From a virus, in IMG/VR virus record IMGVR_UViG_3300028610_000873, positions 1-22,312 of that record: 22,312 bases of DNA. The stretch is one strand, 5' to 3'. The notes beneath the pieces were generated by a model. It was not told where the DNA came from, searched no databases, and saw nothing but the letters and a program-made list of their open reading frames with translations. This document shows positions 1-16,358 of this stretch, piece after piece; within the stretch, counting starts at the first letter, position 1; the number at the start of each line of letters is the position of its first letter. The translations under genes were made by a program, and so were the position numbers.

Positions 1-822
1 CCCTACATCAGTATTGAAAATTCCGGTATTCGCATAAACTGAATCAACTGGATTTGTTAAGCTACCTATGTCAAAAGAACCACTTGGTATTATATCAGCA
101 TAAAAACCAATTGAATCAGGGCTTGCATTATCAAATGATAACATTTGTTGAGTTCCTGAATAAATAGAACCTTGATTAGCTGCTGGGAAATAGAAATTTC
201 TCCATCCTCTTGTTGTTATTCCTAAATCATAAGAATTATCAGCTTGTCCATATATATTCCTTGATTGAAATCCTGTATTATCTGCAAATATAATTAATCC
301 AGAATTCACTTCTATTCTAAAATCATTTGCTGAATTTGCAAATATTTTTGTATTTCCATTGTTAAAAGTTATTCCTGTTCCTGATCCTCCTGTCTCGTTT
401 TGATCTATAATTATTTTTTTAAAAAACCCACTATCCGCCGCCGTTGTGTTTGAACCTACATTATGCTGAACATCATTTTGAAATAATAAATCGCCGCCTA
501 AAGTTAAGTCGTCGCCGTCAAAGGTCAGGTCGTCGTCGCCTGCAATGTTACCAGAACCATCAATAACGCCTACTTCGGTATTATTTCCTGTAACAGTAGC
601 AACGTCAATATAAACATCAGCTTGTAAGGTGTCAAAAACAGCCCTGTCAACATCAAACATTAATATTTCATTGCTATAAATTACATTTGTATCTGTTTTT
701 TCTGCTAATATAAATTTCAAAGTATCGCCGTCATGAAACCACCACATATCAGAACGTACTTTGTTTTGAGAAATCCCTGCCAAGGAAATTAAAATCAATA
801 TTAAACTAAATAATTTTTTCAT
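1..822 (-). CDS. Signal-peptide-bearing tail fibre-like protein (partial, C-terminus off the left edge)
   Basis: The frame is open from the ATG at 820-822 to base 1, giving 274 codons with no stop. The N-terminus (MKKLFSLILILISLAGISQN) is a typical Sec signal peptide: two lysines, a hydrophobic core, and a small residue before a glutamine. The mature part looks like a phage fibre shaft. It is rich in G, N, D and T, has short repeats around residues 95-115 (DDLTFDGDDLTLGG), and later carries phrases such as YDLGITTRGW and DIGSLTNPVDSVYAN. Such phrases are common in fibres that end in an S74-type intramolecular chaperone, which could lie beyond the window. It follows a fibre-tip-like gene at the distal end of the tail module, the usual place for receptor-binding proteins. 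A signal peptide on a fibre is odd, because tails assemble in the cytoplasm. Fibre-like is inferred from composition and position. Confidence 0.7.
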   Translation of the reverse strand, partial: MKKLFSLILILISLAGISQNKVRSDMWWFHDGDTLKFILAEKTDTNVIYSNEILMFDVDRAVFDTLQADVYIDVATVTGNNTEVGVIDGSGNIAGDDDLTFDGDDLTLGGDLLFQNDVQHNVGSNTTAADSGFFKKIIIDQNETGGSGTGITFNNGNTKIFANSANDFRIEVNSGLIIFADNTGFQSRNIYGQADNSYDLGITTRGWRNFYFPAANQGSIYSGTQQMLSFDNASPDSIGFYADIIPSGSFDIGSLTNPVDSVYANTGIFNTDVG

Positions 823-825
823 ATC

Positions 826-1260
826 TTAAAATGTTATATCATAATACCATGTACCCGAAATTGACCCGAGTGTTATATTTACATTATTCGCATCTGGTTT
901 ATTAACTATCCCAAAAGGATTGACTAAATCACCTGCATCGTCATAAATAGTAACTTTAGGGGTTTGTGTACCCAAACCATGGGTTAATTCTAATACACCT
1001 GCATTTAAGTCTCCATTATCAAATGAATTAGCATGCCTTACTTTACGGAACTTCCAGGTAGTTGTACCAGAATTATAATACATCATATACTCATTAGCCA
1101 ATCCAGCTGTATTGATGGTTATATCTGCCATTCTATCTCTGGAATGCTGTAATGTCGATGTTAATTGATCATTATGTTCATCTCCCCGTATTTTTACTCC
1201 AGGTGAATTCTTAATCACTGCATCCATTGCAGCTTTAATTGCAGCATAAGTTAAGCTCAT
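826..1260 (-). CDS. Tail fibre tip/baseplate-associated protein
   Basis: This 144-residue protein has no signal peptide. The N-terminal half is mainly helical (residues 1-50). The C-terminal half contains a pattern, around residues 88-115 (VLELTHGLGTQTPKVTIYDD), that recurs at the ends of phage tail fibres and appendages: a hydrophobic strand, 'THGLGT', then a strand ending in 'YDDAGDLV'. It starts at an ATG preceded by an unusually good Shine-Dalgarno site that overlaps the stop codon of the gene before it. The fibre-like gene begins 3 nt after its stop, so the two are probably translated from one message. Being a structural tail protein is well supported by context; its exact place in the virion is inferred. 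Confidence 0.65.
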   Translation of the reverse strand: MSLTYAAIKAAMDAVIKNSPGVKIRGDEHNDQLTSTLQHSRDRMADITINTAGLANEYMMYYNSGTTTWKFRKVRHANSFDNGDLNAGVLELTHGLGTQTPKVTIYDDAGDLVNPFGIVNKPDANNVNITLGSISGTWYYDITF

Positions 1261-1265
1261 GATAA

Positions 1266-1272
1266 CCTCCTA
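1266..1272 (-). promoter_or_regulatory. Strong Shine-Dalgarno site TAGGAGG
   Basis: Minus-strand TAGGAGG lies 5 nt before the ATG at 1258-1260. Its TAG is also the stop codon of the upstream 121-residue gene. Most other genes here have A-rich leaders or overlapping starts with no such site, in line with Bacteroidota practice, so this perfect site stands out. Confidence 0.6.
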
Positions 1273-1635
1273 TTTTTGCAGTTCGTCAATAATTTCTTTT
1301 TTAGTAAAAGTTTCATCCGTTTTTATACCTCTGTCTTTTGCAATTTTTCTTAACTCTTCAGGATTCATTTTTAGAAACTTCTTTAAGTCTTTTTCTTTTT
1401 TATCATTTTTTACAAATAACTGAAGCAAAACTAATAAATCATTTATCCTGTTTTGGCAACTGCATGAATGATTCCCGTGCTCAGGATGAAATGTTGCATA
1501 TATAATGCCTAGCTTTTTCAAATTAATAATTTCTTGTTTCTTTTTCCTGGATAAAAACTGGTTTGAATTTTCAATATCAAGGATGTTTTTTTTAAAAAAC
1601 TCCTCTATTTCTTTTAAAAATATATTTTTTTTCAT
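1270..1635 (-). CDS. Small protein with C-terminal SAP/Rho-N-like helical motif
   Basis: This 121-residue, lysine-rich protein is not assigned to a family. The C-terminal 33 residues (MNPEELRKIAKDRGIKTD, then a KKEIIDELQ helix) match the helix-extended-helix pattern of SAP, HeH/LEM or Rho-N domains. Those often bind nucleic acid or proteins and are also seen on phage structural or scaffold proteins. The middle has a small Cys/His cluster (HGNHSCSCQ, residues 53-61) that could bind a metal. It follows a terminator hairpin after the 202-residue gene and lies just upstream of the fibre-tip gene. An A-rich leader precedes the ATG. Role unknown: tail morphogenesis or DNA binding are both possible. 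Confidence 0.55.
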   Translation of the reverse strand: MKKNIFLKEIEEFFKKNILDIENSNQFLSRKKKQEIINLKKLGIIYATFHPEHGNHSCSCQNRINDLLVLLQLFVKNDKKEKDLKKFLKMNPEELRKIAKDRGIKTDETFTKKEIIDELQK

Positions 1636-1650
1636 TTTTTTAAGTTTTAA

Positions 1651-1671
1651 AAGAGGGCTGTTAACCCTCTT
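1651..1671 (-). terminator. Intrinsic terminator after the tail tube candidate
   Basis: Seven-base perfect stem (AAGAGGG / CCCTCTT) with a 7-nt loop, 3 nt past the stop codon of the 202-residue gene. The last stem bases continue into a short T run on the minus strand. Its position suggests that a highly expressed gene is cut off here, with partial read-through to the fibre genes. Confidence 0.65.
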
Positions 1672-1674
1672 ATA

Positions 1675-2283
1675 TTAAGCTGCTGCGCTTTGTAATGTTA
1701 CAAATACAGCATCACTGGTTGCTTCATCAGTATCATAAAATGAATATTCAGGCGTACTTTCCAATGCAAACTCTTCACTTTCAAGTTTCAGCATCCACAC
1801 ACCGTCAACATCATTATATTTATCTAATTCAGCCCCGCCTTCAGGTCTTTTAAGCCCTGCCTCAACGCCAAATACTTTATATTTACCTTCGCCGCCTTCA
1901 TCTCTGAATAGGTTTTTGTAAATAACAACAAATCTCTGGTTGCCCATATCTTTTACTATCTTTTCAATAGCTGCTTTCCCTCCTATTGCAAGAAAATCAA
2001 TTGTTTGTTTGTATCGGTATCCAGAGGCTCTTTTTATTCCTGTTACGATTGGTTTTGTCTGGTTTTCGTATCCTTCGATAAGGTATCCTTTATCGCCTTG
2101 TGTCAAAACCAATGCATCTATGAGATTTGGTGATGTCCCATCAAACGTAATCGTCGCGTTTGTAACCGCTAAATCCCATTCTGTTTTTGTAATTAGGAGA
2201 ATATTAGGCTCAGTACCGCCGATTGGTAAATAATCACAATCAACCGCTATCCCTACCGCTAATGCTCCACAATTTGGATCCAT
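1675..2283 (-). CDS. Probable major tail (tube) protein
   Basis: This 202-residue protein alternates predicted beta strands with loops. Its C-terminal third (GEGKYKVFGVEAGLKRPEGG, then a 'GVWMLKLESEE' strand and a Ser/Ala-rich end) has the look of phage tail tube subunits, where a strand-rich core is followed by a 'D..G.W.l.l.s.E' element. No other gene in the window is a better tube candidate, and the usual tube position between tail completion and chaperone is empty. The gene has its own 46-nt A-rich leader and is followed at once by a terminator, as expected for an abundant subunit. It lies after the tape measure gene, which is unusual. The assignment is inference from fold-like pattern and context. 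Confidence 0.5.
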   Translation of the reverse strand: MDPNCGALAVGIAVDCDYLPIGGTEPNILLITKTEWDLAVTNATITFDGTSPNLIDALVLTQGDKGYLIEGYENQTKPIVTGIKRASGYRYKQTIDFLAIGGKAAIEKIVKDMGNQRFVVIYKNLFRDEGGEGKYKVFGVEAGLKRPEGGAELDKYNDVDGVWMLKLESEEFALESTPEYSFYDTDEATSDAVFVTLQSAAA

Positions 2284-2329
2284 AATTTTAATTTTTTAAG
2301 TTTATAAATATTACTGCTGCTGTTTATTT

Positions 2330-2692
2330 TTATGCTGTTTTTACGTAAATCAATACAGTTACGGTATAATTAATCGCATCGGTTGTGTAATATCCTGCCC
2401 CAACGGTAAAATCATGGGACAATAACGTCCAATCTGTCCATATAGTTACCGTTAATCCTGCTGTATCATAATCAGCGGTTACTAATGCTGCTACTTGTGT
2501 ATTAATAGCTGCCACCAAAGCTGTAAATGATGTTACTTCATTCGATTCATCAATATCAGCTTTTGCAACCGTCAATACTTTCACGCTTTCATACTCCTGA
2601 TCTGTAAATTCTGTTGGAGTTGGTAAAGTATATCCTGATGGTACTTGATTATCAGAAATGCTTACCTTCACCCCGTTGTTTACTAATGCCAT
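2330..2692 (-). CDS. Small tail protein of unknown function
   Basis: This 120-residue acidic protein is rich in Thr, Val and Ala. It looks mainly beta (C-terminal TINYT-type strands), with one helix near residues 55-75. It has no signal peptide or membrane segment. It begins after an AAAGGA Shine-Dalgarno-like stretch 15 nt past the tape measure stop and precedes the tail tube candidate. It could be a minor tail subunit, a tail tip protein, or an alternative tube subunit. I do not recognise a family. Confidence 0.55.
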   Translation of the reverse strand: MALVNNGVKVSISDNQVPSGYTLPTPTEFTDQEYESVKVLTVAKADIDESNEVTSFTALVAAINTQVAALVTADYDTAGLTVTIWTDWTLLSHDFTVGAGYYTTDAINYTVTVLIYVKTA

Positions 2693-2707
2693 AGTTTATC
2701 CTTTCTT

Positions 2708-5017
2708 TTATAATGTTTCTAATACTTTTATTTGCTGCTGTGTATCTTCAATATCGTGTACGTCCTCAACTACTAAAACAGGGACTCTAATTACTTCAAT
2801 CTTAGGCGTGTCAATTTGTGTGGTAACACCGCCATCCTGATAATAATTAGAATGACCTGAATATAAGGGTATGCCTCCATGTTTTACGTTTATTGCTGAA
2901 ATTATTGAGGCATCAACCGGGCTTGACATGACTGATTTTGTCAAGACAGGTTCGCCACCTTCGCCTTCGCCATATAGTTTTATACCACCTTCAGCATGTG
3001 AAGCACCTTGTAACATTTGACCTTTCTTGCTTATTACCGTCCCTTTTGAAAATGTAGGTATTTCCGGTAATGGTTTAGCCAAAACTATCCCAGCCTGAAC
3101 TGCACCCGCTGCTACAACCAAAGCGGATAATATTCCCGCACTCACCCCGAAGTCTGCAAATCTTGTACCTCCCCCTGTTGATAATACAGCCGTAACAGCC
3201 ATAGCCGTATTTATCCCGATATTTAATAATGCCTGTGCTTTGTCTAAAATAGCCTGTTTTCGTGTTATCTTAGCCTTTTCAAGTGCAAACTTACGTTCTA
3301 TATCTTCGCGCTTCTTTTCATCGTCCCCGGCTGCTTTTAAATCTTTTTTAAGCTGTCTATCTAAAAGAATCGACTGGCGGCCAGATAATGCAGAAGAAAA
3401 ATTAAATAAAGTATTGCCTAAATTAATAGCTTCATTTACTGTTCTTTTCCTTAATTCTACAATTGCGTTTTGTGTATCTTCTTCAAATTGTAATTTCGCT
3501 TCGGCTTCTTCTTTTGCTATTTCGATTAATTCACTAGATAATTCGTTTGCCCTTTCAATATCCCTGTCAAATTGTTCATCTTTAAAGTCATCTTCTTCTT
3601 CTATTATTTCTAAATTTAAATCTTTAGCCTTTTTTGCAAGCTCTCTTTTTACAGTAGTTAGTTGGGTAACCATCCTCATTTGCGCTTGGAATGCTTCAGT
3701 TGTTGCTTGTACTAATTTAATTTCTGCCTCGCTTTGTGCTTGTAAATCTTCACTTCCTGAAGTTGCAAAACTATTTTGGGTTTTAATTATTTCGAGTTCT
3801 TTTTCAGCTAATTCAATTTTAGTTTTTGCTCTTTCCTGTATCGCTTTGTCCCACGCAATAACAGCTTTTTCCCTTTCTTCTGCTGAAAATTGTTCCTTAT
3901 TGTTTACTATTACCCTCAGTCTTGCTATTTCCTGTTCAATTCGTGCATTTTCAAGATTAATATTCCTAGTCCTTTTTAGCAAACTAAATTTTAATTCTTC
4001 AATTTCCATAGCTCTTGCAGTTTCACGCCTCGTTTCATCTGCAAACTTTCTTATTGCTCCCCTCCCTTTTTCTAATTTACCCGAAAAATCAGCAACTCCA
4101 GTACCCATTTGGATTAACCCATCAGATACAACTTTAGCACCTTCTTTAAATTCACCTTTGAATATTTTAGCAATACCTGAAGCGATAACCCCAATTGCCT
4201 TAAACCTATTTATAAAATTAGTCTTTATAGCTTCGAGTAACTTTTCCAAGCTTTCTCTTGGATTGGAAAATACATTTACTAATGTTTCACCAACAGAAAT
4301 AAATAAATCCTTTAGGTTACCAAAAAGTATCTTAAAAGGGACTAATATTTTTTGAAGTTTAAATGCTCCTTCTTCAGAGCTTTTAAAAAAGGCAACTAAC
4401 GACCCTATTGCAACTATTAACAATCCTATTCCAGTAGAAGCTAAAGCAATTTTAAATATTTTCATTGCTTTAGTTCCTGTGTTAGTCCCGGCTGTTACTA
4501 TTTTTTGAGCATTTCCAAGCAACGCCAATTCTCTACTAAATAATCCAGTTTGCTTAAAAGCATCTTTTATCCCACCGCTATAATTACCGACGTTCCTATT
4601 ATGAACTCCTGTTTTTGCATCTAAAGATGTTAATTGCTTTGTTAAATTTGCTTGTTGTGCGGTTAATCGCTTTCCTTCCTTTCCATTTTCCCTTTGCGAT
4701 TTACTAAGGGCTTTCCATTGTAACTTGGATTTTGTTAATTGTGCATTTAATTGGTCATAACTACCTTTAGCAGATTTTACAATAGTATTGTTTAACTTCT
4801 GTATTTTGGTTATTTCTTTTAAATTTTCATTTGTTTTTTTTAATTCATTTTGATAACCTACTAATTTTTTATTTACTTCATCAGTTGCAGTACCTTGTTT
4901 TTTAGATTCTGTCTTAAAATCAGATACCCCTTTCTTTAGATTAAGAACAGATAATTTAGTATCATCAATCTTTTTTTGATTGGTCTTAATTTCTAATATG
5001 ATGGTTTTGTCTGCCAT
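2708..5017 (-). CDS. Tail tape measure protein
   Basis: This 769-residue protein has the standard tape measure layout. It has a lysine-rich helical N-terminus (residues 1-135), then VGNYSGGIKDAFKQTGLFS around 143-161, a phrase typical of tape measure N-domains. A membrane-like segment follows at about 190-211 (GIGLLIVAIGSLVAFF), then long coiled-coil stretches at about 330-580. A second hydrophobic, Ala/Gly-rich region lies near 595-650. The C-terminal domain begins FSKGTVISKKGQMLQGASHA and continues with glycine-rich EGGIKLYGEGEGG. The protein sets tail length and is ejected with the DNA. It starts at a TAATG overlap with the upstream baseplate-type gene. The membrane-like segments could help DNA cross the host inner membrane. 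Confidence 0.9.
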   Translation of the reverse strand: MADKTIILEIKTNQKKIDDTKLSVLNLKKGVSDFKTESKKQGTATDEVNKKLVGYQNELKKTNENLKEITKIQKLNNTIVKSAKGSYDQLNAQLTKSKLQWKALSKSQRENGKEGKRLTAQQANLTKQLTSLDAKTGVHNRNVGNYSGGIKDAFKQTGLFSRELALLGNAQKIVTAGTNTGTKAMKIFKIALASTGIGLLIVAIGSLVAFFKSSEEGAFKLQKILVPFKILFGNLKDLFISVGETLVNVFSNPRESLEKLLEAIKTNFINRFKAIGVIASGIAKIFKGEFKEGAKVVSDGLIQMGTGVADFSGKLEKGRGAIRKFADETRRETARAMEIEELKFSLLKRTRNINLENARIEQEIARLRVIVNNKEQFSAEEREKAVIAWDKAIQERAKTKIELAEKELEIIKTQNSFATSGSEDLQAQSEAEIKLVQATTEAFQAQMRMVTQLTTVKRELAKKAKDLNLEIIEEEDDFKDEQFDRDIERANELSSELIEIAKEEAEAKLQFEEDTQNAIVELRKRTVNEAINLGNTLFNFSSALSGRQSILLDRQLKKDLKAAGDDEKKREDIERKFALEKAKITRKQAILDKAQALLNIGINTAMAVTAVLSTGGGTRFADFGVSAGILSALVVAAGAVQAGIVLAKPLPEIPTFSKGTVISKKGQMLQGASHAEGGIKLYGEGEGGEPVLTKSVMSSPVDASIISAINVKHGGIPLYSGHSNYYQDGGVTTQIDTPKIEVIRVPVLVVEDVHDIEDTQQQIKVLETL

Positions 5018-6918
5018 TAGAAATAATCATTATTTAAGTTATAATCTAAGCTATTATAATCACCTTCGCCCGCAATATCAGGCACAAAGCTTGATTTGTT
5101 AATATGAATTAACGTAACTGTTGTTAATCCTTCACGATAAATTAAAGGTTCTAATAAAAACCAGCCCCAATATTTTATCCAGATAGGTTTCTCAAAATCT
5201 ATCTTATTAAAATCATTAATATTCAAATACACATCCGCTTTTATTTCACGGTACATATTTAAAGTTTTTTCCATGAATCCGTAATATGTATTTACGTATT
5301 CCTGCAAATTAATATCTTCTGTATTGGGTATGTTTGTTGTAATTTCAATTGGTGTATCTTCGCTCCCGGCTGCAAAAATTGTCTCACTACCAGAACCTAA
5401 TGATCTTTTCTTCATGGTAGTTTTACCGGTATGAGTAAATTCATAACTTATATTACTTTCATCATCTTCAGTAGATTTAAACATATCAAGGTTTTCTGCA
5501 AATTCAAATGGTAAGCTTAGTACTGTTTTTTCTTTTTTTAATTGAATATCGCTTATTGGGAAAAATCCCTGCTGGATATCTGAATTATTGTATTTTATAT
5601 AATTTTTTTGTGCATAATCTGATTTATATTTTGGTTTTACATTAGTAAAGTGCTTATCTGACCAATCAGTAAAATTACCTTGTTTTATTTTTGTTTCTAA
5701 TTCAGCATAAGTAATAAACTTAACATTAGTCCCGGTTACGATTAATCTGGCATTGAATAGTTTTAAAACATCTTCAATCAACTTACTTTGTGATATAATA
5801 AGTAAATTATTAGCAACTGTAAAAGGAGTACCGTAAACTCCTGTATCCGGTGTAGGAGCTTCTAATATTTTTAAATAACTTACATTTGCAGGGGCTTGTA
5901 ATATAGTAATCGGATCTTCAGCTACTGAAAAAATTGCTAAATAAATAACATCCCCAGCAAGAAGAGGTATATCAGTAAACGTCTGATTTATAGAATTATT
6001 ACCCTCTACCAATGGGATACTTACCAAAGTAGGGGTACCTGGGTTTTTTGCACCATACCTAACCTGCAAAGTGGGGAATCCAGTATTTAATACGTCGGTT
6101 TCATAAACTATATTTACTTCAAAAGTGTAATCCCCATCGTATAGTACTGTGTAAATTGTAGGATCAGTATTAGTCCCTAATTCAACTGAAGAACCTGTAC
6201 TTAAATATATATCACTGGAAAATGAAGAAAACCTAATCCCATGAGATACTATTCCAGAAGTTGTTTCTTCAATTGCTACCTGTGCTGTAGCTAAAATACC
6301 CAATTGCGCATCTGTAGGTATGCTATCTGCTAAAGAAATCCATATATCAGTATAATCAGTTAAAGAAAGCAGATCCCCCGATCCTGTAAACCCTGCTTCT
6401 GTTAATATTTTTGTTACTAAAAGGTTCAAGGGTATAAATGGCAACATATGTGCAATATCTAATTTGCCTAACCCAAAAGAAAAAAGTAAAAATACTGGTT
6501 TATCGGTTGCCGCCCGGTTATCATTTGCATAATCTAAATCCCATGTAAAATCCAAATCAGATAAATCCAGATCAGTTAAACTTTTACCTTTTATCTCTGT
6601 GAAAAAATCAATATTACCATCCCTTACAATTAAATCAAAACTATCAGAATCAGATTGCCCTACAACAGCCTTGCCATTTTCAATAAGAATGTTTTTATTT
6701 CTTCTTAACCTAACATTCGTGTCAATATATGGTAATAACGAATTGCTTTGAATAGTTAAAAACCATTGAAATATCCTGGCATTTTCTTTAGTCCAGTTAA
6801 TTTTGAATTTATTAGTAATATTAGTTTTAGATTCAAGTTCGCCAAAACTAGAAATTTGACGCTTTAATTTAACGCCCTCAACTTCAATCCAACTATTATT
6901 TATAAATAATTCAGTCAT
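5017..6918 (-). CDS. Large tail/baseplate structural protein (hub-like candidate)
   Basis: This 633-residue protein opens with a Dit/hub-like strand region (ELFINNSWIEVEGVKLKRQ) and a segment 'NITNKFKINWTKENARIFQW' around 34-53. Long beta-rich stretches follow, and 'LLVTKILTEAGF' near residue 165 resembles segments seen in large structural proteins of Bacteroidota phages. It has no catalytic motif that I can see. It overlaps both neighbours by TAATG junctions, so the 428-, 633- and 769-residue proteins are probably made from one message in a fixed order. A baseplate hub or tail-associated role fits its size and neighbours, but an exact analogue cannot be named from sequence alone. Confidence 0.6.
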   Translation of the reverse strand: MTELFINNSWIEVEGVKLKRQISSFGELESKTNITNKFKINWTKENARIFQWFLTIQSNSLLPYIDTNVRLRRNKNILIENGKAVVGQSDSDSFDLIVRDGNIDFFTEIKGKSLTDLDLSDLDFTWDLDYANDNRAATDKPVFLLFSFGLGKLDIAHMLPFIPLNLLVTKILTEAGFTGSGDLLSLTDYTDIWISLADSIPTDAQLGILATAQVAIEETTSGIVSHGIRFSSFSSDIYLSTGSSVELGTNTDPTIYTVLYDGDYTFEVNIVYETDVLNTGFPTLQVRYGAKNPGTPTLVSIPLVEGNNSINQTFTDIPLLAGDVIYLAIFSVAEDPITILQAPANVSYLKILEAPTPDTGVYGTPFTVANNLLIISQSKLIEDVLKLFNARLIVTGTNVKFITYAELETKIKQGNFTDWSDKHFTNVKPKYKSDYAQKNYIKYNNSDIQQGFFPISDIQLKKEKTVLSLPFEFAENLDMFKSTEDDESNISYEFTHTGKTTMKKRSLGSGSETIFAAGSEDTPIEITTNIPNTEDINLQEYVNTYYGFMEKTLNMYREIKADVYLNINDFNKIDFEKPIWIKYWGWFLLEPLIYREGLTTVTLIHINKSSFVPDIAGEGDYNSLDYNLNNDYF

Positions 6919-8204
6919 TATAAATGCCCTAAATTTAATTGTTTTTTTAATGCTTTAACTTCAGTCTTAAATTTACTTGAATCAGTGCGGTATAAAAACG
7001 ATTCGCCGTCATCTATCCTTACGTTTATATACATATTTGTTTCCTGTAAAAATGCTTGCAAACAATAGAATAAACCTTCTAAGCCTGTTTGATGTACTAC
7101 ATTAATATCATCAGCAAATAATTTTATTGTTTCATTTGCATTTTTAGATAAATCAAATTCGCTATCTTTTAAAAATATTGTTTTCTTTGTGTTAACTGGT
7201 AATGAATAATCCTGTCTTAATGTGAAATTCCAGTAATCCAGACCGCCCAAAGTATTTATCCATGCAACTGATATAGAATCATCACAAGCCTGATGTATAT
7301 TAATTCTTATTTTTTCAGTTAATCTGTCTCTGGTAGTATCGAAAAGATAAAGGTTTACATAATCAATATTAGAAGCATAACCGCCGTTTAGTTGAATTCT
7401 TAACATTACATCAGACCAATTACTTAATGCGTAGGAATCTGTTGAGGTAGTGCCATCTGTAAAGTGTTTTTCTTCTTTTACAAAAAGCGTTGCACTACCA
7501 AAAGCGTTTATTATCGCAACATCAAAATCTTGGCCTTCCCAGTATGCTAACTCTTCAAACTCTGTTAACCATTTAGCAAAAAACTCGTTTGGTGTCCCGG
7601 CTGGCTCTATTATGTAGGGTGTCATGTCAGTGTAATCTAATGCTGCAAAAACCACATTAAACGTTCCCACGCTTACAGCCGTTTGCGATGTTTCACCCCA
7701 CACCTCTACATATTCTAATTCGTAAGATGTTCCTAAATTGGTATCTTGTATATATTTAGTATCATAATCTGAAATATTTTCTTTTGATAATAAGTAAACT
7801 AAATTTTCACTAATATCAGCTGAGAGCAACCCGGTTGCATCCGGTACTATTTTTAGATAAACCTCATCTTCTGCTATTAAAGCCAGGTAATAATTAGTAC
7901 GTACATCATCAGAATTCATATACCCGGATGTCGCAACCAAACTAAACGCACTGTTTAAGACAAATAGCGTATTGTCAGTCCTTTCCGCAATGGTGAAAAA
8001 TCCACTGTCAGTGTTACCACCACCATCATCGCCAAACAAGTAAATATAATCACCTACGTCTAAAGTTGATGATCCTGCTCCAGATAAAACCAAATCAAGG
8101 GTATCAATAGATTCGACAACAAAATCTTTTCTTTGAAATTCTACCAGAATCTCATTGAAAACGCTTGCCCAATCGTCTGGAGTTGTATTTACTGTTATTG
8201 CCAT
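6918..8204 (-). CDS. Tail/baseplate structural protein
   Basis: This 428-residue protein starts MAITVNTTPDDWASVFNEI, a form I associate with structural proteins of Bacteroidota phages. It is mainly beta. A segment near residues 305-330 (ACDDSISVAWINTLGGLDYW) resembles a 'D.i.v.WiN.lGG.DyW.F' signature also seen in that group. It has no enzyme motif, signal peptide or membrane segment. It starts immediately after the stop of the 145-residue gene and overlaps the 633-residue gene by one base. Its position upstream of the tape measure gene points to a distal tail or baseplate component; the exact role is inferred. Confidence 0.6.
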   Translation of the reverse strand: MAITVNTTPDDWASVFNEILVEFQRKDFVVESIDTLDLVLSGAGSSTLDVGDYIYLFGDDGGGNTDSGFFTIAERTDNTLFVLNSAFSLVATSGYMNSDDVRTNYYLALIAEDEVYLKIVPDATGLLSADISENLVYLLSKENISDYDTKYIQDTNLGTSYELEYVEVWGETSQTAVSVGTFNVVFAALDYTDMTPYIIEPAGTPNEFFAKWLTEFEELAYWEGQDFDVAIINAFGSATLFVKEEKHFTDGTTSTDSYALSNWSDVMLRIQLNGGYASNIDYVNLYLFDTTRDRLTEKIRINIHQACDDSISVAWINTLGGLDYWNFTLRQDYSLPVNTKKTIFLKDSEFDLSKNANETIKLFADDINVVHQTGLEGLFYCLQAFLQETNMYINVRIDDGESFLYRTDSSKFKTEVKALKKQLNLGHL

Positions 8205-8880: not shown

Positions 8881-9374
8881 AAAAAACCTACACCCAACAC
8901 ATCCTTATAACTACAATCTTCAATTAAATAGATTATTTGTTTATACTGTTTTGAATTAAACACCGTATTTCTAACCATTGGATAAAAATATATAGCCAAT
9001 ATCTCTGGTAATAATTTATAAATAACAGTATTAAACGTGTCTTTATCCATCCTGGCTAATAACATTTTAAATATAGCTATTTGCCCGGTCGTGCTTTCTG
9101 TAAATAAATCTTCTTTAACCCTGTATTTCTTACCAAGTATTTCAATCTTATCGGGTTTAGAATAATCAACGTTCCTGAAATATTCAAAACAATTTTCTTT
9201 TAAATAACCATCTGTAATCTCTAAAGCTGCTGAATAATCAACATTAAGAAGCTTTTCAATGAATTCAGCTTCATGAATCCCGTCCCAATCCTTTACCCTT
9301 AGAAAGTCTTTGTAAGATAACTCCCCTGCCTTAGTTGGAATAGTGTATTTTTTATTGTCGTGTTTTAATTGCAT
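8787..9374 (-). CDS. Tail assembly chaperone (lambda gpG-like)
   Basis: This 195-residue zero-frame product starts within the 3' end of the 157-residue gene. Its N-terminus (TIPTKAGELSYKDFLRVKDW) matches the start of many tail assembly chaperones, where a Pro/Trp-containing segment leads into 'L.y.dFL.i'. It is mostly helical after that, with residues 92-120 and 155-180 forming long helices. The T9 run at 8878-8886 encodes GFFLLKNL in frame zero and is the slip site for the longer form. Chaperones of this kind coat the tape measure protein during tail assembly and are absent from the finished virion. That gives it a role with the 769-residue tape measure protein encoded downstream. Confidence 0.75.
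   Translation of the reverse strand: MQLKHDNKKYTIPTKAGELSYKDFLRVKDWDGIHEAEFIEKLLNVDYSAALEITDGYLKENCFEYFRNVDYSKPDKIEILGKKYRVKEDLFTESTTGQIAIFKMLLARMDKDTFNTVIYKLLPEILAIYFYPMVRNTVFNSKQYKQIIYLIEDCSYKDVLGVGFFLLKNLTEYQRLKNKDLAAQMQNKLEQESTV
8877..8883 (-). promoter_or_regulatory. Slippery heptamer T TTT TTG for -1 ribosomal frameshifting
   Basis: On the minus strand, frame-zero codons read GGT TTT TTT TTG TTA. Sliding back one base at T TTT TTG gives TTT TTT GTT AAA and enters the open extension frame. The heptamer fits the X XXY YYZ rule. It lies in the C-terminal part of the tail chaperone gene, exactly where such sites occur in other phages. Confidence 0.75.
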
Positions 9375-9838
9375 ACGTTATATTCATTTTCAACTACAAA
9401 AATTAATGTCGTTAAGACCCCGCTTACATTATTATCAAAAGATGCATCGTTATAAACTTCTTCTGCTGTTAAACCCTCAATATCATAACTTTGATTATAT
9501 ACTTCTTTTAAAAAATCCTGATAAAGAGCAGTTAATAAATCTAATACAGCATCAATATCAGTTATTCTATTTTCTGCAAAGCTAGTATCTTTAAAAAATC
9601 CTATTGAAATATTGTACTTTGTATTAACATTTTTACTGTTTTTAATTTCAGAATCCCATTTTACCGGCCTTACTAAAAATACAAAAGCATCATTTTCTTC
9701 ATTTATTGCTACGTTTAATTCATCTTTTGCACCTTGATAAAAGGTTGGCGTTGTATTTTCTCCTGTGTAAGGAGGATCTATAACTGTAGGATCATAAATC
9801 AATTGTGATACTATTCCTGAAATTATATTACCTATCAT
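9365..9838 (-). CDS. Tail completion/terminator-like protein
   Basis: This 157-residue protein has a helical N-terminus followed by 'PTFYQGAKDELN' and 'DAFVFLVRPVKWDSEI' (residues 31-67). The pattern of a Tyr/Phe-Gly segment, an Asn, then a strand with '..vfl..P' is one I associate with the neck and tail-terminator region of Bacteroidota phages. The C-terminal half alternates helix and strand. It sits between the neck adaptor and the tail chaperone, overlapping both, which is where a tail terminator belongs. The assignment comes from pattern and position rather than from a diagnostic motif. Confidence 0.5.
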   Translation of the reverse strand: MIGNIISGIVSQLIYDPTVIDPPYTGENTTPTFYQGAKDELNVAINEENDAFVFLVRPVKWDSEIKNSKNVNTKYNISIGFFKDTSFAENRITDIDAVLDLLTALYQDFLKEVYNQSYDIEGLTAEEVYNDASFDNNVSGVLTTLIFVVENEYNVCN

Positions 9839-10368
9839 GATACTGAATTTACACCAAAATGGCTACGTTTTTGAATCCTGGTAAAAAACCAGGTGGGAAA
9901 ATCTTCATTATGAAACGATATATAAGTGCAAGCTTCATAATATAGGTCAACTCCTTTATTAAATGCCTCATTACTAATCTTTTCAACTTCATATCTGGCC
10001 AATTGGCAAGATTTGTCTTTTTTCTGCCTAACCGTTCCGATTTCCGTATCTTCAGAAAGCCTTATAATTTTCCATTCTGCATAAATGAAATAACGCAACA
10101 TCTTTAAAAGCCCTTCATACACGAATGTCAAAGAACCATTAATCCAATCTTCGCCGTCTACCAATTCAATATAAGGTGAATTCTCAGGTGATTGTGGAGT
10201 TGATGAATCTAAATCATCTATTAATAATAAATACAGATCATCGCCAAGCAAAAGCCTTAAATATTTTTTTTCAACTTGTGCCGTCAAATCTGCAAAATCT
10301 GCATTTTGACTTGAAAGCTGAGTAATATTTATATCGCCTTTAAAATCTGATTTTTGCGTTAAGCTCAT
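9835..10368 (-). CDS. Head-tail connector (neck adaptor) protein
   Basis: This 177-residue, mainly helical protein has features of phage neck adaptors in this phage group. 'VEKKYLRLLLGDDLYLLLID' (residues 32-51) resembles the '..yL..lLGd.ly..l..' helix. It is followed by an acidic 'Y.eLv.G..W' segment near residues 65-75, then 'GLLKMLRYFIYAEW' and a basic segment containing 'T..GTVRQKKDKS' around 105-120. Such proteins bind under the portal and pass DNA to the tail. Its position, first after the capsid cassette and its terminator, fits. It overlaps the next gene by ATGA. Confidence 0.65.
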   Translation of the reverse strand: MSLTQKSDFKGDINITQLSSQNADFADLTAQVEKKYLRLLLGDDLYLLLIDDLDSSTPQSPENSPYIELVDGEDWINGSLTFVYEGLLKMLRYFIYAEWKIIRLSEDTEIGTVRQKKDKSCQLARYEVEKISNEAFNKGVDLYYEACTYISFHNEDFPTWFFTRIQKRSHFGVNSVS

Positions 10369-10380
10369 ATAAGGAAAATT

Positions 10381-10402
10381 AAAGGGAGCATAAGCCCCCT
10401 TT
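10381..10402 (-). terminator. Intrinsic terminator after the capsid cassette
   Basis: A nine-base stem (AAAGGGGGC / GCTCCCTTT) with one A-C mismatch and a four-base loop TTAT, 2 nt past the stop of the 235-residue gene. It is followed on the minus strand by AATTTT. The GC content stands out from the AT-rich surroundings. It would limit transcription from the capsid genes into the tail genes. Confidence 0.6.
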
Positions 10403-10404
10403 TG

Positions 10405-11112
10405 TTATAAATCAAAAATTATTTCAAATGTATCAAGCTCAATTCCTTCGCCAACACTATCATCACCTGTATAAACTAACAGGAATTTCATATACCTATA
10501 ATGCAATTGAGGATTTTGTACGCTTGAAGTAGTAATAGTCTGTGCTGCATTTACAATAGTCTGTTCTGCCACTGTCATATCCTTTCCTAAGGAAATGAAT
10601 ATAGCGTGCGTTGCCGTTGAATCACTTGTTAAGGTATCCACCAGAACAGTAATATCATGAGCGGCAATGACACTATTATATTGTGCAGTTGTTTCGGTAG
10701 TCGTATAATCTGCAATTACACCGTAACTAATGACACTCGTTATTAATCCTGCTACTGGATTAACAGAACTTAAAACATCAGGTACTAATTCAGCATAAGT
10801 ATCTAATACAGATATTTTATAATCTGAATTTACATTAAATGTAGTATCTGTTCCTGTTACACCTTTTGAATTAATGGTCACTTTAAAGTGCAAAGGACGA
10901 TTATTCCTATTCTTACTACCTACCTGAAGGGTAAATGCTATACTATCCTGATTGTCAGTTAATGTGTCTGAGGCCATCCCAGTCCAAGTTAACTTAACGC
11001 CTCTAGTATCTAAATTCCACGCCCTGCTATTATTTAAATCATATGTTAAATCCTGTGCGAATGTTGCAAATCCTAGAAAAGCAACAATCAATAAAACGAT
11101 TAGCTTTTTCAT
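10405..11112 (-). CDS. Secreted-type protein co-encoded with the major capsid protein
   Basis: This 235-residue protein has a textbook Bacteroidota signal peptide, MKKLIVLLIVAFLGFATFAQ, with likely cleavage before the glutamine. The mature region is Thr/Ser/Asp-rich and mostly beta, with one possible helical stretch near residues 175-195. It has no lipoprotein cysteine in the right place and no transmembrane helix after the signal. It starts 3 nt after the capsid stop and ends just before a terminator, so it is probably expressed at a level close to the capsid protein. By position one would expect a head decoration protein, but the signal peptide argues for export. It could be an exported accessory protein, or a virion protein that keeps a hydrophobic tip. 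I do not recognise a family. Confidence 0.65.
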   Translation of the reverse strand: MKKLIVLLIVAFLGFATFAQDLTYDLNNSRAWNLDTRGVKLTWTGMASDTLTDNQDSIAFTLQVGSKNRNNRPLHFKVTINSKGVTGTDTTFNVNSDYKISVLDTYAELVPDVLSSVNPVAGLITSVISYGVIADYTTTETTAQYNSVIAAHDITVLVDTLTSDSTATHAIFISLGKDMTVAEQTIVNAAQTITTSSVQNPQLHYRYMKFLLVYTGDDSVGEGIELDTFEIIFDL

Positions 11113-11115
11113 ATC

Positions 11116-12126
11116 TTAAATATTATCAGTTAATAATGAAAACTTCTGAATAACTTTTTCGCCACTATTAGAAAGTGGAGCTACGCTTCTCGCAATATCA
11201 ACAGAAAGCTGATAGTATCTAACAACATCCTGAGTGAAATTACCACCGTCAGCTTTTGCCCAATATGCATGAACGGCAAATGTCATTCCTGACCCTAATA
11301 AATTAGGTAAACTGAAATAATCAGCTACAGGTGTATCTTTACCCATTGCATTTACCTTAGGAATCCTGCTAACCATTGCGGCAGCCCCGCGTTCCCAGGC
11401 ATACATTTGAAGCCATTCATCGTTATCAATGGAAAATAAATCAGAAACTCCATCGAAATTAATCCCAGCCATTTGATAAACAAGGTTTTTTTCATTACCA
11501 GGGCCTTGAGCAGCTTGTTCCTGAAAAATTATGCTTCCATCAGTTGAATAAATAATATCCAATGGTTTACGATAATCATTAGACCTCATTACTTGTTTTG
11601 TAATGTTGAAAAATTTATCTTTATAAACATAAGGGATATCAAGTATATCATCAGCTTCATCAAATGTCCCAAACTGACCACCATAATCATTTACCCCGGA
11701 CTTGTTAGTTTCCAGAAATGCCAATGAATCAGTTTCAATATCAATCATTATATCCTGAAATGCATTGTATATTTCATTTGCCAAAAAATCAGCACCTAAA
11801 ACATTATGCATTGAATCTTTCGTGCTATGACCAAAACTCCTTACATAAGGAGTAAAAGAAATTGTATCATGAGCCGAAGTCCCAAACCCTCCCGTGTGAT
11901 CCGATGTCCTCGCATTAGTCACGGCCGCGGTTGTTCTTTTGAAGTAAAAGGCATCCGTTTGTACGCCTTCACTATCAACTATGTCCTGCAAATTAATAAA
12001 TAGTGCAGGAGCATTTTTTAAAAGTATTGTATTTACCGGCCTAAGTGCTGCCCTTAATTCAGGTTCACTGAATAATTCAGACATACGCACTTGTGCTGCG
12101 GTAAATATACTATCTGTATAAGCCAT
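11116..12126 (-). CDS. Major capsid protein
   Basis: This 336-residue protein lies directly after a scaffold-like gene, in standard head-gene order. It has mixed alpha/beta composition with an N-terminal helical arm (MAYTDSIFTAAQVRMSELFS). A central region contains 'YGGQFGTFDEADDILDIPYV' around 148-167, and the C-terminal region is strand-rich. A Gly/Asn-rich loop with 'AQGPGNEKNLVYQ' lies near 215. Size and position fit an HK97-fold capsid subunit. It has no N-terminal delta-domain or protease gene beside it, so capsid maturation by cleavage is not indicated. The start is preceded by an A-rich leader (CAATAAAAA) rather than a Shine-Dalgarno site. Naming rests on order, length and general resemblance to Bacteroidota phage capsids. 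Confidence 0.75.
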   Translation of the reverse strand: MAYTDSIFTAAQVRMSELFSEPELRAALRPVNTILLKNAPALFINLQDIVDSEGVQTDAFYFKRTTAAVTNARTSDHTGGFGTSAHDTISFTPYVRSFGHSTKDSMHNVLGADFLANEIYNAFQDIMIDIETDSLAFLETNKSGVNDYGGQFGTFDEADDILDIPYVYKDKFFNITKQVMRSNDYRKPLDIIYSTDGSIIFQEQAAQGPGNEKNLVYQMAGINFDGVSDLFSIDNDEWLQMYAWERGAAAMVSRIPKVNAMGKDTPVADYFSLPNLLGSGMTFAVHAYWAKADGGNFTQDVVRYYQLSVDIARSVAPLSNSGEKVIQKFSLLTDNI

Positions 12127-12162
12127 TTTTTATTGTATTAAAATGTATTATTTTTTAACAGA

Positions 12163-13059
12163 TCAATCTTGATCTTTCAATTTTTTCTCTAAAGCGATAT
12201 GTTCTGTTGAATGCCCTTCCAACTCACCCGTTTCAATTTGTTTATCAATTGATTCGCGTGTTACTTTTGTATTGTCATCTGGTTTTGGATCACCCGGTTT
12301 TCTGTTCGTGGGTGACCTTTCTTTTTTCATAGGTACATATTTTGAAATTTCAGTATCAAAAACAGCCTGAATTGTTAATGGCTCTTTTGTATCGTTATTT
12401 TTCAAAATATTACCTTCCTTATCCAGTATGACAGTTTTTTCATTCTGTATATCAATAACAAACATATTATTAAAGACACTATCAGCAACGGTTCTACGGC
12501 TTTTCAGTTCTTCATCAGTTTCAAAATCAATAGGGAAATCATTTAATTCTTTCGTATAAGCAATCTTTATGTTGTTTTCTTTAATTGCTTTTAAATGATC
12601 TGTTTCCTGACCTTCAAACTTTGATGTAAACCCTTTAATCGTTAAAGCTTGTGCATCAAAATCTTTTTGTAATTGTTCATTATCAACAGTTGAAAGTTCC
12701 TCTTTTACTGACTTGTAAACATTTTCGGTGTTTGAGTAGTCATCCATTTCAATACCAAATTCAGCCGCTAATTTCTTATTCTGAGCCGAAATGATATTAT
12801 TTGCAGCAGCATTGTACAACAAAGATGGCAACTTTTGATTTTTAGCCATCTCAATCAATTCTGTTAGATAAGTTGAATTATGATCTTCTTTTAAATTATT
12901 CTCACGTAATTCAAAATCTTCTTTTTTAAATACTTTATTTTTCTCTCTAAATTGGTTTAGAATAATAGTTGTCCCACCATCTGTTTTAATAGAATTAGTA
13001 ATAAACTCTTTTTCTAATCCGGTTATAGAAACTAATAAATCAATGTGTTTTTCTTCCAT
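12163..13059 (-). CDS. Probable capsid scaffolding protein
   Basis: This 298-residue, highly charged, helix-rich protein lies between the portal region and the capsid gene, the standard scaffold position. Residues 1-60 are helical (a 'LVSITGLEKEFITNSIK' segment). Residues 60-175 are helical and Gln/Lys/Glu-rich. Residues 195-225 form a strand-like part (NMFVIDIQNEKTVILDKEGN). The C-terminus is basic and proline-containing (ERSPTNRKPGDPKP) and then acidic. A basic C-terminal end is typical of scaffolds that bind capsid subunits. It has no protease motif. Alternatives are an internal head protein or a scaffold-protease without its protease domain. Confidence 0.6.
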   Translation of the reverse strand: MEEKHIDLLVSITGLEKEFITNSIKTDGGTTIILNQFREKNKVFKKEDFELRENNLKEDHNSTYLTELIEMAKNQKLPSLLYNAAANNIISAQNKKLAAEFGIEMDDYSNTENVYKSVKEELSTVDNEQLQKDFDAQALTIKGFTSKFEGQETDHLKAIKENNIKIAYTKELNDFPIDFETDEELKSRRTVADSVFNNMFVIDIQNEKTVILDKEGNILKNNDTKEPLTIQAVFDTEISKYVPMKKERSPTNRKPGDPKPDDNTKVTRESIDKQIETGELEGHSTEHIALEKKLKDQD

Positions 13060-13084
13060 TTTTACAGTTTTTTAAACTTCAGTT

Positions 13085-13537
13085 TTATTTATCTTTTTTT
13101 TCTTTAATTTCCTTAAGTATGTTTTCTGTTTTCAATAATGAACCGGGCTCACTGCCGAATGTTTTTAGATATAGTTCTCTTGCGACTTGTAAATCAGTAT
13201 CGTATTTTTTTACTTTTTCAATTAATGTCTCAAGCTTCATTAAATGATTAGGCTTTTTGTTAAATTTTTCTTCATAATCTTTTCGAGCTTGTATTAATTC
13301 CGGGCTATCTGCTTTTTTTGGTTCTGTTTTTTTTGGTTCTTTTGTCAACTTTTCACCTTCTTTAAATTCATGAACAACCTTCCATTTAAACTCAGGCTTT
13401 ACGCTTATGTCCAAAGCTTTTACGCCTTTCAACTGCTCTTCTGAGATTATTTTCCTTACAGTTTCAAGTTTTTCCTTTGTTTGCCCTTCTTTATTCACAA
13501 AAGAAGTTTTTTCCTTCCTTTCAATCAGTACTTTCAT
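13085..13537 (-). CDS. Small head-region protein with a duplicated 27-residue motif
   Basis: This 150-residue, strongly basic protein lies between portal and scaffold; its start overlaps the 3' end of the portal gene. The N-terminal 60 residues look globular (MKVLIERKEKTSFVNKEGQT). A Lys/Pro/Glu linker follows at 64-78. Two ungapped copies of a motif follow at residues 84-110 and 119-145: A-R-x2-Y-x3-F-x3-P-x2-L-x-K-x-E-x6-K, with 9 of 27 positions identical. The repeat resembles small SAP/HeH-like helical units. It may link portal, scaffold or DNA during procapsid assembly, but that is a guess. Confidence 0.55.
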   Translation of the reverse strand: MKVLIERKEKTSFVNKEGQTKEKLETVRKIISEEQLKGVKALDISVKPEFKWKVVHEFKEGEKLTKEPKKTEPKKADSPELIQARKDYEEKFNKKPNHLMKLETLIEKVKKYDTDLQVARELYLKTFGSEPGSLLKTENILKEIKEKKDK

Positions 13538-15107
13538 TTTCTTTTATTTTAGTTAATAATTCTGCTTTTATTTCTTTTGGTTCTTTTGTTAAATCTAGCC
13601 GGTTAACAAAATTCTGTAATTCTAGTTTTATTTTTAATTGACTAGGATTTAATAATACTTCGTGCTCTTTAAGTTCTTTGAGGGTAAAAAAAGGATACGG
13701 CTCAACGTCAGCCAACTTTAATTGTTCTTCTAATTTTTGAGGTTCGTTTCGGTAGTATGCACGTATCCAATCTAAATATAATGACCGTAAAAAGCTCATA
13801 TTTAATCCAATCTCTTTCCCTCTTTTGATTTCTGTTAATATATCTTCTTCAGTTCTGCCGGTATAAAACCTTTGGTATTTAACTATAACGCTACCAAATT
13901 TATTTGTAAATAATTTCCCTAAAACGGTTAAAGCCCAAACTTCTACACTTTCTATGTAGTTTATTATCTTGTTTATCCTAGTATTTAAAGGGATCTGATT
14001 TTCTTGTACTTCTGTTGCTGTTTTTAAGGAATTTACGGCTATATTTTTTAATCCGGTTGCATGGAATTCTATTTCCTGTTCAAGTTGTTTTAAGTTTTCT
14101 CTTTGGAATTCTAATGTCTTAATATCTTTTTCAACATACTTGACAATCTCAGGCATGTAAGGCTTCATGTCATTAGGGATAGTTTGTGGCACTTTCAATA
14201 CTTCGGCTGTGTTCTTTACCCAATATTCCCCAGTGCCGTTACAAGCATCACATTTATAACTGCCATTAGCACCATCGTCTATTATTCCAGTACCGCTACA
14301 CTTTAAACATTTAAAGGCTAAGGTAATCTTTTCCGGGAAAGCATGTAATACTTTGCTTTCTTCAAATATATCTGAATCCCTTTTATATATTTTGAACTTT
14401 TCAATAGTAGTAAAAAGCAATGAATCTTTTACTTGGTCTTTAAAAACTAAGCCGCCTACTTGCCTAAATGGCTTTTTCTGTAAAATTACCTCTTCATTAA
14501 AACCGTATATTTGTGGTTTTTCTCCTGCCTTTTGTGAAATTTTAGCTTTTTCTTCTGGTTTTTTTCTTATAACAAAATCCCACCATCCTGTTTTGCCTTG
14601 ATAGTCTACCCATTGGATTAATCTAAAAACTTTTTCCTCATCTGTTGATATATCTAATTCGTAAATCAGTGTAATGTCATCATAATAGAAAACTGAATTA
14701 ATCGGTATAAATATAATAATCGGCTTCCCTTCGTTTTCGGTATCTTTTTCGATTAATATAAAATCATTGGGCGCATTGAAAGCCTTATCAATGATTATAT
14801 CTACTGACTGTAAATAATCAATATCGATTAAATGTTGTATAAAAGCTTTTTTTTCTTCTTCGCTTTTTATATCAAATTCCCTAAGTACTTTATTTGATTG
14901 GAATTTAGTAAGATGCCCTTTTACAAGGTCAAAAATTGAATAGGTAGAGTTATAGGATAGTTTTTTCTTTAATTCTTTTTGTTCTTTTGTTTCAACTTCT
15001 TCTAAAGATGTAGTTTCGAGGCTTTCGCTTCTTCTGGATATTTCATAAAGCACCCTATCAACCTCCCGGGCAACCACAACAAAATCATTTTTATACTTTT
15101 CTAACAT
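13521..15107 (-). CDS. Portal protein with a four-cysteine zinc-finger-like insert
   Basis: This 528-residue protein is in the portal position and has the usual portal length. It has a helical N-terminus and a strand-rich region at residues 110-220. A cysteine insert lies at 267-289: CLKCSGTG, then CDACNGTG, with C267, C270, C286 and C289 in place. A long helical region (about 300-380) containing 'LEFQRENLKQLEQEIEFHAT' resembles the portal stem/wing helix. A helical C-terminal domain with 'YTGRTEEDILTEIKRGKEIG' follows. The two CxxCxGxG motifs are like those in DnaJ's zinc-binding domain and probably bind one zinc ion. I believe similar inserts occur in other Bacteroidota phage portals but could not check. 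A good promoter lies just upstream. Confidence 0.8.
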   Translation of the reverse strand: MLEKYKNDFVVVAREVDRVLYEISRRSESLETTSLEEVETKEQKELKKKLSYNSTYSIFDLVKGHLTKFQSNKVLREFDIKSEEEKKAFIQHLIDIDYLQSVDIIIDKAFNAPNDFILIEKDTENEGKPIIIFIPINSVFYYDDITLIYELDISTDEEKVFRLIQWVDYQGKTGWWDFVIRKKPEEKAKISQKAGEKPQIYGFNEEVILQKKPFRQVGGLVFKDQVKDSLLFTTIEKFKIYKRDSDIFEESKVLHAFPEKITLAFKCLKCSGTGIIDDGANGSYKCDACNGTGEYWVKNTAEVLKVPQTIPNDMKPYMPEIVKYVEKDIKTLEFQRENLKQLEQEIEFHATGLKNIAVNSLKTATEVQENQIPLNTRINKIINYIESVEVWALTVLGKLFTNKFGSVIVKYQRFYTGRTEEDILTEIKRGKEIGLNMSFLRSLYLDWIRAYYRNEPQKLEEQLKLADVEPYPFFTLKELKEHEVLLNPSQLKIKLELQNFVNRLDLTKEPKEIKAELLTKIKENESTD

Positions 15108-15157
15108 TCATAGCAAATTGCAGATAAAAGGGTAAAACTGCTTTCGCATCAAGTAGA

Positions 15158-15188
15158 CAAAGTTAAAAAATATTTATTTAATATGCAA
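15158..15188 (-). promoter_or_regulatory. Bacteroidota-type promoter before the portal gene
   Basis: Minus-strand TAACTTTG (15158-15165) matches TAnnTTTG exactly. A TTG (15186-15188) lies 20 nt upstream, the expected spacing for the primary Bacteroidota sigma factor. It lies in the intergenic gap, giving a leader of about 45 nt before the portal ATG. Confidence 0.65.
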
Positions 15189-15194
15189 ATGTGA

Positions 15195-16358
15195 TTATTC
15201 TCCTAGTGTATATTGACCAAATAAAATAATTCTGAATAATACTAACCCGCTTAAATCATCTCTTGCAGTTGCTTTAAATGTATCATTTAATCTCGGATCA
15301 AATCTAAATACTATCCCATATTTTTCTTTTATATTATATTTTATAGTTGTTGAATGGTTTCCGCCTCCTGCCTTATCGTCAAAAGTGACATCACCACCGA
15401 ATTGATCAAAGTCAGAAGTACTTTTATAATTTCCTAGCCCAAATTGAGATGTATTTAATTTTTTAAACCTTAATCCATTTGTAAGAGCTGCCAAATCACC
15501 GAATTTAGATTTATCTCCAGCAGTTGAATGCTCCATTATAACTAATACATTTTGTATATCTATTGCAGTCGTGCCATTTCTAAGATTAAAAATAAAATTC
15601 TGAGTTGTAGTATCTGCGTCAACATTCATATCTATTGAGCCACGTATAACTACAGCAGCGGTTGAAAATGATGCTGTAAAATCTGCATAAGTATAAATAG
15701 TATCATTAGAAGCTGATCTTACTTCTAATTGTGTAAAAAATCCTCCTTGTTGGATAACAATATATTCCCCTGTTCCTGTAAATCCATGCCCTGAACTAAC
15801 CAAACAAAAGAAACTATCTACTTGAATGGATTCTGTTAAAGTGATATCTGTTTTATCCTCACGCATTAACGCATATCTAAACGCATTAGTTGTTTGATCT
15901 TGTATCCAAACATCAAAAGATTCTGCCCTATCCCGAAATAGGAAATATATATTGTTTACACTAGATAACTGGTTTGTTGTATTTGCATCAAATAACACAT
16001 TGAAATATCTGTATTTATTTATAAATTCTGTTCTATTAAATTCTATTACAGTGTCAGAACTAGTACCATACCATGTTACAGAGCTTATATTAGCATATGA
16101 ATTATTTTTATAGATTTTAGCCTGGAGGATTACATTCATTGAAGGGCTACCAGAAATACTATCTATGTCCACCCTTATATTACAAGATGTGAAATAACTC
16201 TTATTCGGATATATTGAATAATTCCATAATGTATCATTATTGGATATCGTGTCGCCTGGTTGCCCTTTATATCTGTATTGATATTCACTTTGCTTTAGGG
16301 CTTTTTGAGATTGTACGCTTAATGCTGCAAAAAGAAATACAAATAATAAGTTTTTCAT
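15195..16358 (-). CDS. Secreted-type protein in its own transcription unit (moron-like)
   Basis: This 387-residue protein begins with a clear Sec signal peptide (MKNLLFVFLFAALSVQSQKA), with cleavage likely before the final glutamine. The mature protein is rich in Asn, Thr, Ser, Tyr and Phe and looks entirely beta, like adhesin, receptor-binding or appendage proteins. It has no lipoprotein cysteine and no later membrane segment. The gene has its own promoter and follows a strong terminator, and the next gene also has its own promoter. This layout is typical of a moron, an accessory gene added between phage modules. It may be exported to the host surface to block other phages or change host properties, or it may be an appendage. 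Both are inference. Confidence 0.65.
   Translation of the reverse strand: MKNLLFVFLFAALSVQSQKALKQSEYQYRYKGQPGDTISNNDTLWNYSIYPNKSYFTSCNIRVDIDSISGSPSMNVILQAKIYKNNSYANISSVTWYGTSSDTVIEFNRTEFINKYRYFNVLFDANTTNQLSSVNNIYFLFRDRAESFDVWIQDQTTNAFRYALMREDKTDITLTESIQVDSFFCLVSSGHGFTGTGEYIVIQQGGFFTQLEVRSASNDTIYTYADFTASFSTAAVVIRGSIDMNVDADTTTQNFIFNLRNGTTAIDIQNVLVIMEHSTAGDKSKFGDLAALTNGLRFKKLNTSQFGLGNYKSTSDFDQFGGDVTFDDKAGGGNHSTTIKYNIKEKYGIVFRFDPRLNDTFKATARDDLSGLVLFRIILFGQYTLGE

Follow-up and report, generated by a model that had tools for sequence, protein, structure and literature searches.

Q-rule signal peptides on capsid-adjacent, terminase–portal and fibre-position proteins suggest export of virion components in some Bacteroidota phages

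The late module of the tailed Bacteroidota phage studied here encodes three proteins, SP-A, SP-B and SP-C, with predicted cleavable Sec signal peptides (SPs), encoded respectively between the terminase region and the portal, directly after the major capsid protein (MCP), and last among the tail genes. Virion parts of tailed phages assemble in the cytoplasm, and assembly is taught as a wholly cytoplasmic process; the initial annotation was right to call export signals on such parts unexpected. We consider it rather probable that the three are accessory virion proteins with real Sec signal peptides, which would be exported, cleaved and added to the particle either in the periplasm or on lysis. 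The implication would be that particle parts of some tailed viruses leave the cytoplasm before they join the particle, contrary to the accepted account of assembly.

Results

Three Q-rule leaders in one late module

The window, meaning the whole stretch of DNA analysed (22,312 nucleotides of IMG/VR record IMGVR_UViG_3300028610_000873), is a 22.3 kb record whose minus strand holds a late module in the order TerS, TerL, SP-A, portal, scaffold-like gene, MCP, SP-B, head-tail genes, tape measure, tail genes and SP-C. Its landmarks are the terminase large subunit (17433..18716; phrog_3717, E 7.5e-14), the portal protein adjoining SP-A (13521..15107; phrog_7376 portal, E 1.7e-27), the MCP (11116..12126; phrog_7231 virion structural protein, E 4.3e-33, with a relative annotated as major capsid protein) and the tape measure protein that marks the tail module (2708..5017; phrog_18891, E 1.4e-24), all on the minus strand.

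Signal peptides were called with a purpose-written rule-based scorer of n-, h- and c-regions, standing in for SignalP. Among the 28 window genes tested, it called precisely the three minus-strand reading frames that the initial annotation had singled out, and their coordinates were confirmed. SP-A (15195..16358, 387 aa) begins with MKNLLFVFLFAALSVQS followed by Q (signal peptide 16358-16308, score 9.9, cut between QS and Q), leaving a mature protein of 370 aa. SP-B (10405..11112, 235 aa) begins with MKKLIVLLIVAFLGFATFA followed by Q (11112-11056, score 12.75, cut between FA and Q; mature 216 aa) and occupies the decoration/cement position. SP-C (1..822) begins with MKKLFSLILILISLAGIS followed by Q (822-769, score 10.7, cut between IS and Q); the 274 aa present are the N-terminal part of a tail-fibre/spike-like protein. 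The capsid-neighbour and fibre positions claimed earlier hold for SP-B and SP-C, with the correction that the fibre-position gene, whose signal peptide also stands, extends beyond the window. It is preceded by a small minus-strand gene (826..1260) with a weak head-decoration match (phrog_2647, E 3.5e-5).

All three leaders have the n/h/c build of a signal peptide and place Gln at mature position 1 after a small residue, the 'Q-rule' that is specific to the phylum Bacteroidota (PMC5837995, PMC10653852). The scorer passed about 0.04% of shuffled N-termini, and among 23 proteins of the lambda late region it called only Lom, which is known to be exported. Of its signal peptidase I (SPI) calls in three Bacteroidota host genomes, 65-77% had Gln at +1, near the published phylum mean of 71% (PMC5837995). 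This calibration agrees with the proposed SPI site of the phylum. Type IX secretion, for which a C-terminal T9SS sorting domain served as the criterion, was rejected: a Pfam search of SP-A, SP-B and the full-length SP-C counterpart described below gave no T9SS domain match.

Relatives and identity of the three proteins

In a related 43.6 kb contig (L002/L029) with a 95% identical MCP, the counterparts of all three genes keep the signal peptide. The orthologues of SP-A and SP-B share 66% and 61% identity, respectively, with the window proteins. Similarity is weaker for SP-C, whose search against the contig gave E 2.3e-6. The SP-C counterpart (L029:1263-3605, 780 aa) begins with MEKLITILLIFFAIFSYS followed by Q, cut between FSYS and Q, a leader that the scorer misses because of a Glu at position 2, and it matches a phrog_4636 tail spike (E 3.5e-7). 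Adjoining it are another SP gene and a lipoprotein, which are probably lysis genes. Placed last among the tail genes and fibre-like in sequence, SP-C is, on sequence grounds, a tail fibre or spike.

SP-A had been suggested to be a moron. This now seems doubtful, because its C-terminal half has homologues (E 8e-12) in Vibrio podophages that occupy the same slot, after TerL and before the portal gene, and lack a signal peptide. In PDB, a tail tube (9n71_B, E 0.005) was a weak match of the SP-A family. The models that AF2 gave for SP-A and SP-B (mean pLDDT 40 and 38) were too poor to use. Single-sequence searches found no close relatives of SP-B in IMG/VR, nor of SP-B or SP-C in INPHARED.

Several further features of these genomes were observed. 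A 27.7 kb contig (G002, L031) encodes an SP-A identical to that of the window, and at its start lies the C-terminal portion of a fibre resembling SP-C; it appears to represent the same phage population. Residues ~263-299 of the portal form an insertion resembling the DnaJ zinc finger, CxxCxGxG...CxxCxGxG (Pfam DnaJ_CXXCXGXG, E 0.006, below cutoff), which is also kept in L002. The tape measure has 769 aa in the window (2708-5017) and 933 aa in L002 (L002:17103-19904). Given MCPs that share 95% identity, this implies that closely related phages differ in tail length. A mosaic structure is suggested for the terminase genes: between window 17433-19209 and L002:1713-3544, TerS and the N-terminal portion of TerL are different, and the neighbouring late genes are closely similar.

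Signal peptides concentrate directly after the capsid gene

MCP relatives were gathered from IMG/VR and Bacteroidota assemblies, giving about 80 loci, and their genes were called with a heuristic gene caller. Signal peptides were found at MCP+1, the position directly after the MCP, in 28/71 loci, at +2 in 2/67 and at the remaining offsets from -5 to +5 in 1/578, that is, in 3/645 outside MCP+1; a Fisher test of MCP+1 against other offsets is descriptive only, the loci being related. The trait of SP-B is thus shared by other phages, a point raised by the initial annotation. Gln stands at +1 in 27 of the 28 MCP+1 leaders, which differ in sequence and retain the n/h/c pattern. An MCP homologue followed by an SP gene also occurs in Bacteroidota assemblies (L032, L033, L036). 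In loci that lack the SP gene, a ~357-aa adaptor usually comes straight after the MCP.

The tree set comprised 28 SP proteins, one per distinct locus, with the window and named phages included. One BLAST cluster holds 22 of them, and its profile also reaches L145, L150 and L170. SP-B and the L036 protein have no relation to this main cluster detectable by BLAST or profile, and membership of SP-B in the main family is unsupported (hhalign probability 0.2%, HMM E-value 1.5). On the MCP tree the SP trait is clustered, with five changes of label.

SP-B and the MCP+1 family lie beside the MCP and are dispensable among relatives, as is typical of decoration or cement proteins. Searches of PDB and Pfam returned no match for them, and PHROG none of significance; the Pan5 record is the only GenBank entry naming a member as a cement protein. 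By gene position, the MCP+1 family are putative decoration proteins. The MCP+1 proteins of Pan5 (L005, ON968456) and MD05 (L006, OP947161) bear Bacteroidota-type Q-rule leaders although both phages have hosts assigned outside that phylum; these host assignments may deserve a check.

The leader behaves as a swappable module

Three unrelated protein families, MCP+1, SP-A and the pectate-lyase fibres, exist both with and without a signal peptide. At MCP+1, L141 encodes a homologue of the family (E about 1e-15, HMM 2.6e-19) that begins at the mature domain and has no in-frame leader upstream; the L141 MCP is closest to, and groups with, that of the SP-bearing L140. Among the Cellulophaga phages, the pectate-lyase domain (117-774) of the SP-bearing phi10:1 gp093 shares 44-50% identity with the SP-less phi4:1 gp051/052 and phi14:2 gp097, and the SP-bearing phi18:3 gp087 shares 28-30% with the SP-less phi4:1 gp050 and phi14:2 gp096. 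Conversely, a signal peptide and about 118-132 N-terminal residues are common to Cellulophaga fibres with different C-terminal domains. The presence of the same domains in SP-less proteins at virion positions (phi4:1, phi14:2, L141 and the Vibrio homologue) indicates that the signal peptide is a swappable leader.

Signal-peptide fibres are recorded in Cellulophaga virions

For two phages of Cellulophaga baltica, phi10:1 and phi18:3, GenBank records mark gp091-094 and gp085-087, respectively, as structural by experimental MS/MS, and all seven carry a signal peptide with Gln at +1. By this deposited annotation, SP proteins are present in the virions of both phages. Several of the SP fibres have lyase domains. 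A later paper (PMC11946311) attributes mass spectrometry on purified viral particles to the earlier Cellulophaga phage study. The annotations could include envelope carry-over. In the stretches of phi10:1 and phi18:3 that were read, however, the structural note is attached to all 7 SP proteins of the fibre block and to none of the 10 SP or lipoprotein candidates outside it, which argues against a general carry-over of exported phage proteins.

The trait is absent from the structural modules examined in phi18:1, hattifnatt9-1 and B124-14, and from phi4:1 fibres and phi14:2; with so many examined phages lacking it there, a universal trait of Bacteroidota phages was rejected. In Flavobacterium phage FCL-2, the short fibre-like protein gp71 (L040:45363-45806) starts with MKTIVITLLLSISTYS followed by QVGIATTTPTETLDVNG, a signal peptide leading directly into a fibre motif.

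A putative O-glycosylation motif

The Bacteroidota O-glycosylation motif D[ST][AILVMT] occurs 16 times in mature SP-A, SP-B and SP-C (5.6 expected) and 12 times in the L029 counterpart of SP-C (4.3 expected). It is not enriched in the SP proteins of phi10:1 (5 versus 12.7 expected) or in the exported proteins of three host genomes, and its use as proof of export was dropped, leaving it as a lead only. In the MCP+1 family it recurs at aligned positions and falls partly within conserved ones, where it may be structural.

Discussion

The leaders, their Q-rule, the gene positions and the domain swaps are established at the level of sequence, and export of these proteins is well supported. For the window phage we infer export during infection and a virion location. 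The initial annotation offered both exported envelope proteins and virion proteins as roles; the Cellulophaga MS/MS records and the SP-less versions of the same domains in ordinary virion genes favour virion accessory proteins that are also exported.

On this preferred reading, the host Sec system would export a decoration-position protein, a tail fibre or spike and the protein whose gene separates terminase from portal; signal peptidase I would cut before the +1 Gln, and host glutaminyl cyclase would presumably cap the new N-terminus as pyroglutamate. The exported proteins would then fold in the periplasm. Lysis would mix cytoplasm and periplasm and let them bind the particle, a loading step that we offer as conjecture. 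SP-less versions of the same mature domains would presumably be attached in the cytoplasm. Decoration proteins and fibres are parts that are plausibly added last.

The main rival places the proteins in the envelope only, outside the virion, where they would mask receptors, exclude superinfection or trim capsule for release in the manner of Lom or T5 Llp, their gene place reflecting late expression. The leaders and the Q-rule speak for export, not for virion location, and lambda Lom, itself SP-bearing and exported, is encoded beside the tail fibre genes. Three observations speak against such a role: in two Cellulophaga phages it is the SP proteins of the fibre block, in particular, that MS/MS annotation assigns to the virion; SP-less copies of the same domains occur in ordinary virion proteins; and signal peptides are found almost exclusively at MCP+1, the classic decoration position. 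We judge an envelope-only role unlikely.

Dual use, in which exported enzymes or adhesins would act first on the host surface and then partly become virion fibres or coat, would give the lyase domains of several SP fibres a function both in capsule removal at release and in infection, but it leaves the capsid-adjacent SP gene unexplained and appears improbable. Quite improbable is an uncleaved N-terminus, unused for export and serving within the virion as attachment peptide or membrane anchor, akin to the hydrophobic tips proposed in the initial annotation. It would suit the normal cytoplasmic assembly of tailed-phage virion proteins, but the conserved, near-universal Gln after a valid cleavage site makes sense only with a cleaved leader, as expected of Bacteroidota Sec substrates, and the leader sequences diverge yet keep the n/h/c pattern.

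Extending exported accessory virion proteins beyond the window, we tentatively propose that some Bacteroidota tailed dsDNA phages complete their particles outside the cytoplasm: Sec-exported Q-rule decoration and receptor-binding proteins, matured in the periplasm and possibly pyroglutamate-capped and O-glycosylated, would be loaded on otherwise complete virions at lysis. If true, assembly would follow a divided route, in which the parts that meet the next host are modified in the periplasm. It would also bear on annotation, which at present lists these genes under secreted enzymes or morons. In addition, the +1 Gln offers a cheap marker of phages infecting Bacteroidota.

Our search of the open-access literature turned up no description of tailed phages that export virion proteins through Sec, and no published interpretation of signal peptides on Cellulophaga-type fibre or lyase proteins. 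One or two signal peptides were counted in two rumen Bacteroides phages (PMC5723332), and the lyase proteins of Nekkels and Ingeline are stated, in one clause with no interpretation, to carry signaling peptides (Bartlau et al. 2021, PMC8776804). These lyases and the fibre blocks of phi10:1 and phi18:3 resemble the window in that fibre or lyase proteins encoded where the structural module ends, on its tail side, have Sec signal peptides with +1 Gln. The phages concerned showed no signal peptide at MCP+1, and their sequences gave no match to SP-A, SP-B or SP-C.

Morons of the lambda Lom type share with the window proteins Sec export and a gene in the late or tail region. In contrast, they are non-virion proteins with no positional link to the capsid gene, and the record of related SP fibres in virions argues against a Lom-type identity. 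Decoration and cement proteins of tailed phages are not known to carry signal peptides. Those of the gpD, Soc and phage L Dec type are optional, are encoded by a small gene beside the capsid gene and may bind after capsid assembly (PMC7602432). SP-B is likewise encoded by a small gene adjoining the capsid gene. The filamentous phage coat proteins pIII and pVIII offer a parallel to the present proposal, being virion components that are synthesised with signal peptides and exported. Filamentous virions, however, are extruded through the envelope without lysis, whereas the phage considered here is tailed, has dsDNA and encodes a terminase, a portal and a capsid protein.
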